The translations under genes and the position numbers were made by a program. Positions 22,215-26,603 of a stretch of 35,165 nucleotides of DNA are shown here, one piece after another. The stretch lies in assembly GCA_947178245.1 (NCBI GenBank), contig CAMWXO010000002.1:1-35165 (forward strand), in the 5' to 3' direction. The notes below the pieces were generated by a model. The model made no database searches, was not told the DNA's origin, and was given only the letters and a program-made list of their open reading frames with translations. The stretch's first letter is position 1. Each line of letters starts with the position of its first letter. This DNA is from an uncultured Porphyromonadaceae bacterium. Its GTDB lineage: Bacteria > Bacteroidota > Bacteroidia > Bacteroidales > Muribaculaceae.

Positions 22215-23000
22215 TCAGATGTCATAGAACCGGTCGAGAAGCTCCCGGCGGTAAGATTTCGAGATCTTGATGTCTGTGATATTGTCGAGCGGCGGAAGAA
22301 GTTGCAGGTCGGTGGCGTTGATGATGCCCACATAGCGGACATTGACGATATATTGCTTGTGTGTCCTTACAAAGTCCGATCCATAGCCGAGTATGGACTC
22401 GGCCGTGGTCTGGCGCTTCAGGATGATGCGTTTGAGATTTGAGAATACGCATTCCCATATTTTCCTGTCGGACATATAGCGGAAATATACTATGTCGTCC
22501 GGATTCACGATGATCTTGGAGTTGGTCACCGACGTTATGGAAATCAATTTGGTCTTCTCGTGGCGCAGTGGGGACGACGAAATGCCGGTCGCATGAGTGC
22601 GGAGGCCTGCGGAGTCTGCATTCATGTTGAGATACCTGTTTATGACCACGTCGAGTTCCGAAGGAGCGAAAGGTTTCAGCAGAAAGTCGAACACTTTCAG
22701 CGAGAGGGCGTCGTGGATGTAGCGCTGATAGCAGGTGTGAAACACCACTCTCGTGCAAGCCGGAAGTTGATTTTCCTCATACCATGCCAGGCCGTTGCCT
22801 TCAGGAAACTCCATGTCAAGAAAGAGCAGATGAGGGCGGTGGAGCGCCACGAGGCGCTGGCCTTCGCGCAGAGTGGTCGCCATTGCGCAAAGTTCAGTGT
22901 CCGGCCTCCGTGTGAGCTCATCTGCGAGAAGCCGTGCGCTCGCCAGGTCATCGTCTATAATCAAGGCTTTTATCTTAGGCTCGGGAATCAGGTCTTTCAT
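22215..23000 (-). CDS. LytTR-family response regulator
   Basis: Receiver: ALIIDDDLASARLL, LLFLDMEFPEGNG (phospho-Asp), FLLKPFAPSE (Lys); C-terminal LytTR: GYGSDFVRTHKQYIVNVRYVGIINATDLQLLPPLDNITDIKISKSYRRELLDR. Confidence 0.92.
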   Translation of the reverse strand: MKDLIPEPKIKALIIDDDLASARLLADELTRRPDTELCAMATTLREGQRLVALHRPHLLFLDMEFPEGNGLAWYEENQLPACTRVVFHTCYQRYIHDALSLKVFDFLLKPFAPSELDVVINRYLNMNADSAGLRTHATGISSSPLRHEKTKLISITSVTNSKIIVNPDDIVYFRYMSDRKIWECVFSNLKRIILKRQTTAESILGYGSDFVRTHKQYIVNVRYVGIINATDLQLLPPLDNITDIKISKSYRRELLDRFYDI

Positions 23001-25030
23001 TTTTTGATTTCAGTTGATAGGTGAATGGAGGCCTTGTGATATATCTCACCGTCGGGAGATGTGGTGAAACAATGGCTGAAAGTTATTTCTTCGTGATACT
23101 TCTCCTTTATTAGCCTCATGGTCTCGAGCAGAACTCGCAGCCCGGTGCCCTTGTGATCGGTATCGGTATGGTCGGGGCCGCAGTTGTTTGTCACGGTCAC
23201 TGACACGCGGTTGTCTTTTTCAGGCCTCATTTCTATCTCAAGCCGCCTGTCCACTTCCGCCGGGAGCGATCTGAAGCCGTGCTTGAATGCATTTTCCACG
23301 AGAATCTGAAGAGCCATGGATGGAAAGAGCAATCCGGTGTCTATCACGGGGTCGATGAGGCATGTGTAGCGGAGGCGCCCTTTGCAGTTGGCTCCGATCA
23401 CGTCGATGTAGTCATCCACGAATCTGAGCTCCTCCGCGAAAGGAATCAGGATATCCGACATCGCGTATTGCTGACGACGTATGAGATTGAGAAGGCTTTC
23501 GAGATGCGACTCCTCTCCGTGTGTCTTTCTGAAGAGTTCTTGGTTGAGGGCGTTGTAGATGAAGTGGGGAGTCACCCTATTGCGCAGATTTTCTTCCCTC
23601 AGTTTGATTATCTTGTTCATCATTCTGTCTTCACGCTTTCGGGCGTTGTAACGGCGCATCATTGACATCAGCACGAGGACCACGATCACGGCCACGGCGA
23701 TGGCTACAGCGGCTATCAGCTTATAGATGTGGGCGCTCTGGCGGGTGTTTTCAGTCTGAAGGTTGAGGATGCGTCGGTCGCGCTGATAGAGCAGGTTGAG
23801 GGCCGAGATGCGCTGTCGCAGCTTGTAGGAGCGAAGCGAGTCCTGCACCGCGTCGTGACGTGTGCGGTAGGAGTATGCGCGGGAGTAGTCGCCGCTGCTT
23901 GCATACAGGTCTTCGAGAGCCTTCAGGCGGGCTACGTGCTGCTCAAGGCGGAGAGTGTCTGATTCCGGGTGCGTCAGGGCCACCCTTTTCCCCTCGGCAT
24001 AGTCTCCGGCCGAGGTGGCTGCCCTGATGAGCAGGGTATGGATGTAGGAGACCACCATCGGATTGGGCTGACGGGTGGTGAAGAATTCCGATGACTTCTC
24101 GAGTATGGGCATGGCCTCTCCCACGCGTCCGAGGCGTATGTATGTGTCGGCGAGGTTGATGTTGTTAAACATCCTCTCCCATGTTGATTCGGGTATCGAG
24201 TCAAGCAGATTGTCGAGCCGAGTCAGCACCCTCTCGGCGTCACGATAATCTCCCTTGTAGTAATAGAGGTTGGCGAGGCCGCTGAGCGTATTGAATTTGT
24301 CATACTGATCCATGACCCCGTAGATATCCATTGACTTGTTCCACCATATAAGGCCGTTGTCAAAGTCGTGCATGTCTGAGAAAACGCCCGCTATGCCGTT
24401 ATATAGCGGAATATAGTTCGCTTCCGGAAGTGTCAGTGAGTCGGCAATGGAAATGGCCCGGTGATAATAGATGGCGGCGCTGTCGAGGCTTCCGGCCAGC
24501 CGCATGGTGTTGGCATAATTGCCGTAGTATTGCGGAAGATCACTCCGTATGCCGGAGAGTTCGGCATAGTCTACCGCCTTCCGCAGATACTTTGCGGTGG
24601 AGTCGGCATTGTAGTGATACTGGTCGAAATAAGATCCATAGGTCTGGTATGCCTTTGCGAGAATCCGTGCCTTATTCTTGTCAGGGGTATGGCGCTCGAG
24701 CCAGCGTATGGCTGAATCGGCTGATGTAGCCAGCGTTCGGGGATCTCTCTGATAGTAAGCGATCACTCCTTGCTCTACCATGGCCTCGCTCCATCTCATG
24801 GAGTCGCCTTGCAGCAGGGCGGTTGCCTTGATGTCGCCTGCAAGGCGCATGGCACCCGGCATATTGCCGGCACGAAGAGAGTCGGATATGGCCGAGATTT
24901 CGGCCGGAGAGCCGGAAATGTCATCTTTCTCGCCGCTGCAGGCGGGGGCGATGAGTGCGAGTGATGCCGATGCGAGAATGCATTTCAAGGCCGGGCGGAT
25001 TACGCTCAAATTCATGCTATTCGTATTCAA
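22997..25030 (-). CDS. TPR-containing LytS/YehU-type sensor histidine kinase
   Basis: N-terminal signal with Cys (LALIAPACSG), TPR-like repeats, TM segment LIAAVAIAVAVIVVLVLMSMM, His_kinase motif NRVTPHFIYNALNQEL, ATPase motifs LVENAFKHG and GTGL. 4-bp ATGA overlap with the regulator gene. Confidence 0.9.
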   Translation of the reverse strand: MNTNSMNLSVIRPALKCILASASLALIAPACSGEKDDISGSPAEISAISDSLRAGNMPGAMRLAGDIKATALLQGDSMRWSEAMVEQGVIAYYQRDPRTLATSADSAIRWLERHTPDKNKARILAKAYQTYGSYFDQYHYNADSTAKYLRKAVDYAELSGIRSDLPQYYGNYANTMRLAGSLDSAAIYYHRAISIADSLTLPEANYIPLYNGIAGVFSDMHDFDNGLIWWNKSMDIYGVMDQYDKFNTLSGLANLYYYKGDYRDAERVLTRLDNLLDSIPESTWERMFNNINLADTYIRLGRVGEAMPILEKSSEFFTTRQPNPMVVSYIHTLLIRAATSAGDYAEGKRVALTHPESDTLRLEQHVARLKALEDLYASSGDYSRAYSYRTRHDAVQDSLRSYKLRQRISALNLLYQRDRRILNLQTENTRQSAHIYKLIAAVAIAVAVIVVLVLMSMMRRYNARKREDRMMNKIIKLREENLRNRVTPHFIYNALNQELFRKTHGEESHLESLLNLIRRQQYAMSDILIPFAEELRFVDDYIDVIGANCKGRLRYTCLIDPVIDTGLLFPSMALQILVENAFKHGFRSLPAEVDRRLEIEMRPEKDNRVSVTVTNNCGPDHTDTDHKGTGLRVLLETMRLIKEKYHEEITFSHCFTTSPDGEIYHKASIHLSTEIKK

Positions 25031-25066
25031 AAAGATATCTTATAGGAGTCTGGGACTTTCAGACTG

Positions 25067-25074
25067 CAAAAATA
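25067..25074 (-). promoter_or_regulatory. Candidate -7 element (TATTTTTG on the minus strand) for the sensor-kinase operon
   Basis: Plus-strand CAAAAATA about 37 nt upstream of the annotated start. Confidence 0.45.
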
Positions 25075-25214
25075 ATAAAATATAATATCTTTTCATAATC
25101 ATATTCCGCCGGATTTTGCGTCGGTGTAAGTATTTTGGCCTTCTTATACGCGATTTTCTGCAACTCAGGTCTTGTTATCGGCATTTCAGAGTGGAAATAC
25201 ACAATATGGCAGTT

Positions 25215-25243
25215 TTTGATATGGAAATGTTTTTATAAATTTG
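25215..25243 (+). promoter_or_regulatory. Orphan Bacteroidetes-type promoter (-33 TTTG, -7 TAAATTTG)
   Basis: TTTG (25215-25218) and TAAATTTG (25236-25243) with a 17-nt spacer; no plausible plus-strand ORF downstream before the hairpin at 25342. Confidence 0.6.
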
Positions 25244-25249
25244 CATGCG

Positions 25250-25382
25250 CAAAGGCAACTTACATCTCATCTTAAAAAGCAAGGTAAACCGGCGCTGACA
25301 GGCACCGGCAACTCTACAATCATCCACTGACTTGCAGAATAAAGGAACGCCCTCATTCTTGATTTCGAGGGCGTTCCTTACA
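25250..25382 (+). ncRNA. Candidate small RNA of unknown family
   Basis: ORF-free stretch between the promoter (25215-25243) and a strong hairpin (25342-25379). Possible internal pairing GCAAG (25279-25283)/CTTGC (25331-25335) enclosing CCGG (25289-25292)/CCGG (25305-25308). Confidence 0.4.
25342..25379. terminator. Strong intergenic hairpin, terminator-like
   Basis: AAGGAACGCCCTC-(12 nt)-GAGGGCGTTCCTT, perfect 13-bp stem; only weak T-tracts on either side, so orientation is ambiguous. Confidence 0.65.
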
Positions 25383-25403
25383 GTTTACGCGAATCGGCGA
25401 ATT

Positions 25404-25445
25404 AATTCTCAATTCCCAATTCTAAATTCTCAATTCTAAATTCTC
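25404..25445. repeat. Tandem heptad array, 6 copies of AATTCYH
   Basis: AATTCTC AATTCCC AATTCTA AATTCTC AATTCTA AATTCTC, directly abutting the stop codon of the minus-strand fusion gene. Confidence 0.9.
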
Positions 25446-25451
25446 AATTAT

Positions 25452-26603
25452 TTACCCGCCTCTTCTTATCTTGATATCAAGCATCTCGGGCGATCTCTTA
25501 GCCCCGTCGGGAAGCACGAGCATCAGGTGGCCTCCGCCCCCGGCACCGAGCATCTTCCATGCAAGCGCTACATTCTTATATTTTTCAATGAATTCAGCCA
25601 CTCCCGGCTGCATCATTGCCGGGAAGAGAGACGTCTGCGCCTCAAAAGAAGCAAGATAAGCCTCCGCGAATGCCGGGAGGTCGCGGTGCCTGATTGCCTC
25701 CCAGCAGCGCTCTGCAGCGGAGGTGAGAGCATGCACCTTTTCGGGTGTGATATCTTTACCGTCCACAACCGAACAGCCGGGCCTGCGAGGAAACATAGGC
25801 ACGATGGCGAGATGATCTTCAAGCCATGAGAGGGTTTCCTCGTCATGAATCGATTCGATGCGGGAAGGCCAGAAATGGCCTTCGTAATAGTGGCGCGTGA
25901 TGCCCGACATGCAGATGCCGATAGCATCCTGAGCGCCTGAGATGTGGCCCGTATTCTCCGGATCGTTTTCAAAGCAGAATATGAGGCGTGCGAGCATCTC
26001 CTCGTTGTAGGGCGGAAGTTCGTAGGGCCATATCTTGCGTGCTGTGTTACGGGTTGAGGTAGACATGCCGCCACGCTCCATGAATTCATGATTGGGCTCT
26101 ATCGAGGCGGTGATGGCCCAGCCTGCGCCATGCTCCGACACGTATGGCTGATCTATCCACGTCCCGGCTATATCCACGCGGTAGGGGAGGTGTGATTTCA
26201 CCTCTCCGCGCAGAGCGGTGGTGGAGCGCGCCGCGAGGCCTTCGTCGGGGATTCTGTCAAGTACTATATATTTTATGCCGCGGCTCTCGCAGAGTTGCCT
26301 CTTGATGTCAGACCCTCCGTCGGAATTCACCACGAAGATGTCAGGCTTGATGCGATCCATCACCTCTACGAAATCGAGCATTCCCGATCCGGTATTGATG
26401 AATGCGTCGGTGACGTATCTGATCGATTTTACCATATAGAGGCGCTCTTTCTCGGAGTAGACGGTTTTGCGTTTTTTAAGTTCCTCGATGGTCTTGTCAG
26501 ATCCTATTCCTACATATAGGTCGCCGAATTGCGCGGCTTGTCTGAAAAAAGCCACGTGGCCTGAATGGAGCATGTCGTAACAGCCCGAGACGAATACCTT
26601 CAT
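25452..26603 (-). CDS. Cytidylyltransferase-like / GHMP kinase-like two-domain fusion protein
   Basis: N-terminal nucleotidyltransferase: VFVSGCYDMLHSGHVAFFRQA (HxGH) and ARSTTALR (ISTxxR-like). C-terminal GHMP features: LPYRVDIAGTWIDQP (motif 1) and LGAGGGGHLMLVLP (motif 3). Confidence 0.8.
   Translation of the reverse strand: MKVFVSGCYDMLHSGHVAFFRQAAQFGDLYVGIGSDKTIEELKKRKTVYSEKERLYMVKSIRYVTDAFINTGSGMLDFVEVMDRIKPDIFVVNSDGGSDIKRQLCESRGIKYIVLDRIPDEGLAARSTTALRGEVKSHLPYRVDIAGTWIDQPYVSEHGAGWAITASIEPNHEFMERGGMSTSTRNTARKIWPYELPPYNEEMLARLIFCFENDPENTGHISGAQDAIGICMSGITRHYYEGHFWPSRIESIHDEETLSWLEDHLAIVPMFPRRPGCSVVDGKDITPEKVHALTSAAERCWEAIRHRDLPAFAEAYLASFEAQTSLFPAMMQPGVAEFIEKYKNVALAWKMLGAGGGGHLMLVLPDGAKRSPEMLDIKIRRGG

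Follow-up and report, generated by a model that had tools for sequence, protein, structure and literature searches.

A predicted, undescribed small-RNA gene very probably switched on by the adjacent LytTR regulator and recurring with the same position and layout in at least 13 genomes of related gut bacteria

A sequence-only reading of the 35,165-bp stretch of DNA analysed here (the window) singled out an intergenic segment between a sensor kinase gene and a fusion-kinase gene as a candidate small RNA, which raises the question of whether this segment is a gene in its own right and, if so, what controls it. Our analysis suggests that it is very probably an undescribed small-RNA gene switched on by the adjacent LytTR regulator, with its position and layout retained across 13 or more genomes of related gut bacteria. 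We give a probability of roughly 80% to a small regulatory RNA gene that stands alone, is about 135 nt long, diverges from and is activated by the LytTR two-component system, and carries the output of this system (Table 1). The candidate has gained support from synteny, from a leave-one-out model, from an RNA that is more conserved than its flanks and from the lack of a matching Rfam family. Judged by its sequence, the segment would pass for an intergenic small regulatory RNA, with a promoter, no ORF and a terminator, the T-tract of which is weak in the window.

Table 1. Coordinates of the predicted small-RNA unit and of the two-component genes next to it, in window positions.
Feature	Position	Strand	Evidence
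Response regulator, receiver and LytTR domains; proposed activator of the RNA promoter	22215..23000	-	Pfam
Sensor histidine kinase, TPR repeats and His_kinase (PF06580), divergent from the RNA	22997..25030	-	Pfam, orthologues
Candidate -7 element of the sensor-kinase gene, TATTTTTG	25067..25074	-	inferred
LytTR-type direct repeat 1, CCTTCTTAT	25139..25147	+	aligned with the conserved repeat of 13 relatives; 21-bp period
LytTR-type direct repeat 2, GCAACTCAG	25160..25168	+	alignment with 13 relatives; 12 bp after repeat 1
LytTR-type direct repeat 3, GCATTTCAG	25181..25189	+	alignment with 13 relatives; 12 bp after repeat 2
-33 promoter element, TTTG	25215..25218	+	pattern match; promoter-only matrix from 13 relatives
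-7 promoter element, TAAATTTG	25236..25243	+	pattern match; promoter-only matrix from 13 relatives
Predicted small RNA, about 135-137 nt	25249..25385	+	synteny, constant spacing in relatives; ends predicted from promoter and hairpin
Conserved RNA tail, AATCATCCACTGACTTGCAGAAT, directly before the hairpin	25318..25340	+	similarity to relatives' tails
Terminator-like hairpin, 13-bp perfect stem, 12-nt loop	25342..25379	+	folding; equivalent hairpins in relatives

The promoter (25215-25243, with a 17-nt spacer between TTTG and TAAATTTG) lies where the sequence-only reading had placed it, pointing into the segment. Sites of the form TTG-N17-21-TANNTTTG occur just twice in the window when both strands are counted: this one, which is the only one on the plus strand, and one on the minus strand (28008-27978) upstream of the permease gene. 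When the window, about 70,000 positions in all, is scored with a promoter-only matrix derived from 13 relatives, 25211-25243 comes out on top, and a repeat-only matrix from the same relatives likewise gives its best score to the window site; the two matches are one base off their expected spacing.

In a BLAST search of 111 genomes of the genus, the RNA had no relative at E<=1e-5 besides the window itself, so synteny was needed to find its counterparts. The fusion kinase was rejected as an anchor, as none of 80 relatives of that gene has the sensor nearby. The sensor kinase proved useful, with orthologues at 54-60% identity in 16 other genomes of the genus. Three of these 16 loci were left out, two being cut by contig ends (one of them with a partial operator) and one split across contigs; in all 13 with an intact upstream region, a divergent unit is present upstream of the sensor, consisting in order of three 9-bp repeats, a promoter of the Bacteroidota type, an RNA body and its conserved tail, and a terminator hairpin. 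The body of these units is usually 96-101 nt long, and its sequence is altered while the parts and their spacing are kept. When close species are compared, conservation is usually higher in the RNA than in the DNA that follows it (for example, 0.91 vs 0.23 and 0.73 vs 0.34). Since place and parts persist while the sequence changes, searches by sequence only would miss this RNA, as BLAST did.

The layout also extends to more distant sensors: two loci with sensors of 39-41% identity (L136, L137) match it by eye and by fold. A further sensor/regulator pair at 39% identity (L138, in genome G011) has an operator-like stretch (26 bits) and no recognisable small-RNA unit, which possibly reflects a loss. 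In genome G050, the sensor gene and the small-RNA unit are found on separate contigs (L206, L207); each lies near a contig end, so that a repeat or an insertion may have disrupted the junction.

A model that combines repeats and promoter and draws on the 13 relatives only, leaving the window aside, picks out 25133-25245 in the window's own genome with E=4.7e-10; other complete carriers score 49-87 bits, and the remaining genomes of the genus 28 bits or less. Among the 397 genomes of the family searched, matches outside the genus, in G308 and G265, were rejected as promoters of ordinary protein genes. A match in G082 was also set aside, with no recognisable sensor or LytTR gene nearby; that genome has three intergenic LytTR-like repeats accompanied by another promoter and a hairpin (L160/L208). 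A matrix of the 22-nt tail alone was too weak to single out the site in 35 kb.

What would control this promoter is suggested by the DNA upstream of it. In the relatives this region aligns without gaps over 114 columns and contains three 9-bp repeats with a 21-bp period; the pooled self-match is 0.435 at lag 21, compared with about 0.32 or less at other lags (8 to 34). The self-match of the window also peaks at lag 21, yet the peak is modest when taken alone (reached by 83 of 5000 shuffles). An operator-only model finds one strong site (32-53 bits) in every carrier genome except the window's, the next best site scoring 20.5 bits and being coding, a count that refers to draft genomes and to this layout of operator, as operators laid out otherwise would escape the model. 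The repeats of the window, which stop about 25 bp upstream of the -33 element, are more diverged than those of the relatives and were not reported by the operator-only model. The response regulator encoded next to the unit has both a PF00072 and a PF04397 domain above the Pfam cut-off, with strong conservation of the LytTR domain among carriers.

The LytTR operators described in the literature consist of 9-bp repeats, mostly 12 bp apart (for example ACCACTTAC-12-ACCACTTAC) and typically about 10 bp from the promoter (PMC6193735). The repeats described here agree with these in length, in their 12-bp separation and in their location upstream of a promoter, and those of the relatives, of the GACCACTTGG type, resemble ACCACTTGC; they differ in being three rather than a pair, in their distance from the promoter, about 25 bp as against about 10 bp, and in the promoter itself, which is of the Bacteroidota type (PMC6193735). 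As far as can be told from regulator domains, repeat length and spacing, the promoter would thus qualify for LytTR control, less clearly in the window than in its relatives.

The body of the RNA, from the -7 box to the hairpin, is 97 nt long in the window, and 11 of 14 loci have a body of 96-101 nt. In many relatives the terminator is preceded by a tail of the form ..UCAACC..ACUUGCA, which the window keeps: the last 32 nt of its body outscore 998 of 1000 dinucleotide shuffles when compared with the relatives' tails. Beyond tail, length and hairpin, the window RNA body has no significant similarity to the relatives (its summed score was reached by 95 of 1000 shuffles), and a UUUCAACC loop common to most of them is missing from it. 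The conservation of 25250-25340 apart from the hairpin, which had been proposed as a mark of a genuine RNA, therefore holds for the tail (2 of 1000 shuffles as good) and, except for length, fails for the rest of the body. Conservation of the RNA beyond its flanks appears to be usual among the relatives; in the window it would be limited to tail, length and hairpin.

The internal complementarity reported earlier is present, as GCAAG (25279-25283) with CTTGC (25331-25335) and CCGG (25289-25292) with CCGG (25305-25308), and the former pair is formed in the minimum-energy fold; the single-sequence folds of some relatives likewise pair a 5' segment with the conserved CTTGC. Compared with dinucleotide shuffles, the fold of the 138-nt segment has z = -3.9, and 199 of 200 shuffles fold less well. 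No single consensus fold was obtained across relatives (RNAalifold on a mixed alignment gave four pairs), because two subgroups of relatives fold differently.

Because the window copy is more diverged than its relatives, the RNA might have lost its function in this species while still working in the others, the window copy being a decaying remnant. The diverged operator, the missing loop and the weak T-tract would fit such a decay. We nevertheless consider it unlikely, as promoter, tail, 97-nt body and perfect 13-bp hairpin are all intact, and so are the reading frames of sensor and response regulator.

The perfect 13-bp hairpin of the sequence-only reading is confirmed, with arms AAGGAACGCCCTC (25342-25354) and GAGGGCGTTCCTT (25367-25379), and the end that had been given for the segment, 25382, falls just beyond it. 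Relatives have an equivalent hairpin at the matching place, often unrelated in sequence; the stems differ between subgroups yet still pair, and one subgroup of six shows several pairs in which both partners have changed. The plus-strand T-tract of the window is indeed weak (ACAGTTT), as had been said. This weakness, together with a minus-strand permease/kinase operon that ends at 25452 with no other obvious terminator before the hairpin, is what would be expected if the hairpin were only the terminator of that operon and the promoter match arose by chance. That reading seems very improbable, since promoter, repeats, body length and hairpin recur together in 13 relatives with differing downstream genes or a tRNA, and several relatives have long plus-strand T-tracts. 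The hairpin probably serves the minus-strand operon as a terminator as well as the small RNA.

With regard to the nature of the product, Rfam covariance models gave no match at the gathering threshold in the window and chance-level matches only in 24950-25500, and on the 13 relatives they returned only tRNAs. No Rfam family was thus matched, which agrees with the earlier statement that the segment is not recognisable as SRP RNA, 6S, tmRNA, RNase P or a known riboswitch. It had also been described as ORF-free, which is borne out: there is no ORF of 20 aa or more inside the window RNA, no conserved ORF in the 97 nt, and none shared among the relatives' RNA stretches. A shorter frame of 17 codons does begin at an ATG at 25245, and some relatives have short frames too, so that the unit could be imagined to encode a very short peptide (a leader peptide or small protein) rather than to act as RNA; this has very little probability, given that the ATG lies upstream of the expected start site and that the frames vary in position, length and sequence among relatives, one of which (L129) has none.

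Beyond the RNA the neighbours vary by species, being different genes or a tRNA, and the protein genes mostly converge on the RNA. For this reason the RNA is not a leader, and the relevant neighbour is the LytTR two-component system and not, as the sequence-only reading had suggested, also the fusion kinase. Action in cis, whether by antisense or feedback effects on the sensor/regulator mRNA or by serving a downstream gene as its leader, could be suspected from the RNA being encoded beside the two-component genes, and is just as improbable as the peptide, since the RNA does not overlap them, is predicted to pair with the sensor leader or sensor-regulator junction of its own species no better than with those of other species, and has downstream genes that differ.

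For the stand-alone regulatory RNA that we favour, a rough proposal can be made. The sensor kinase would phosphorylate the LytTR response regulator, which would then bind the three direct repeats with their 21-bp period, upstream of the -33 element, and activate transcription of an RNA ending at the GC-rich hairpin; the RNA would carry the output of the system, most likely by base-pairing with mRNAs through one or more exposed UCAACC-like segments. From transcription, phosphorylation and direct binding to activation rather than repression, the mode of action and the targets, these are steps that we infer. In nine genomes, complements of the UUUCAACC loop were no commoner than those of a reversed control and fell in different genes, with no recurrent target.

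It is possible, if somewhat doubtful, that in Bacteroidota a LytTR two-component system has this new, rapidly evolving small-RNA family as its only direct output; such a phosphorelay would work entirely through RNA. One of the nearest parallels is FasX of the FasBCA system in group A Streptococcus, where a small-RNA gene lies beside a ComE-like regulator, a consensus regulator site precedes the FasX promoter, phosphorylated FasA is proposed to act only at that promoter, and the output is proposed to pass mainly or solely through FasX (PMC12675982). In contrast, the fasBCAX locus belongs to a Firmicute, has another type of promoter, and produces an RNA with known targets (PMC12675982). The working mode may be like that of FasA and FasX; we claim neither a likeness of sequence nor kinship with FasX, and such kinship is unlikely. 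RNAIII of the agr system in Staphylococcus aureus is also transcribed divergently from a LytTR-controlled two-component operon; it is, however, a far longer RNA that codes for delta-haemolysin and forms part of a peptide quorum-sensing locus, features that are not seen at the window locus.

Within Bacteroidota, few small RNAs with a known controller have been described. As presented in the portions of the papers drawn on here, GibS and MasB of Bacteroides thetaiotaomicron resemble the window RNA in having their own start site, an intrinsic terminator, a similar size and narrow conservation, and MasB is activated by a dedicated regulator, Cur; those portions describe no link of either RNA to a LytTR two-component system (PMC7366714, PMC10994844). 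A further difference from these two is that the window RNA has no Rfam match. We found no published small RNA tied to a LytTR two-component system in Bacteroidota in the literature searched. As regulator, operator, promoter and RNA occur together and are conserved over many species, both the controller and the function of the RNA are directly testable.

Some minor observations concern the other side of the locus. The DNA that separates the hairpin from the end of the fusion-kinase gene includes, at 25400-25450, an A+T-rich near-tandem repeat of CAATTCTAAATTCTCAATT-like units. The fusion gene itself (25452-26603, minus strand) scores in Pfam only as CTP_transf_like (PF01467), and its C-terminal half resembles, by eye, a sugar kinase of the GHMP type. 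The gene occurs widely in Muribaculaceae and relatives, where it often follows a matching permease; going solely by the relatives of this fusion kinase, the window most likely comes from a member of Muribaculaceae. Three contigs labelled Eggerthellaceae, Lachnoclostridium and Lachnospiraceae (L071, L081 and L094) carry a Bacteroidales-type fusion kinase at 69-74% identity, and are probably mislabelled or contaminated bins.
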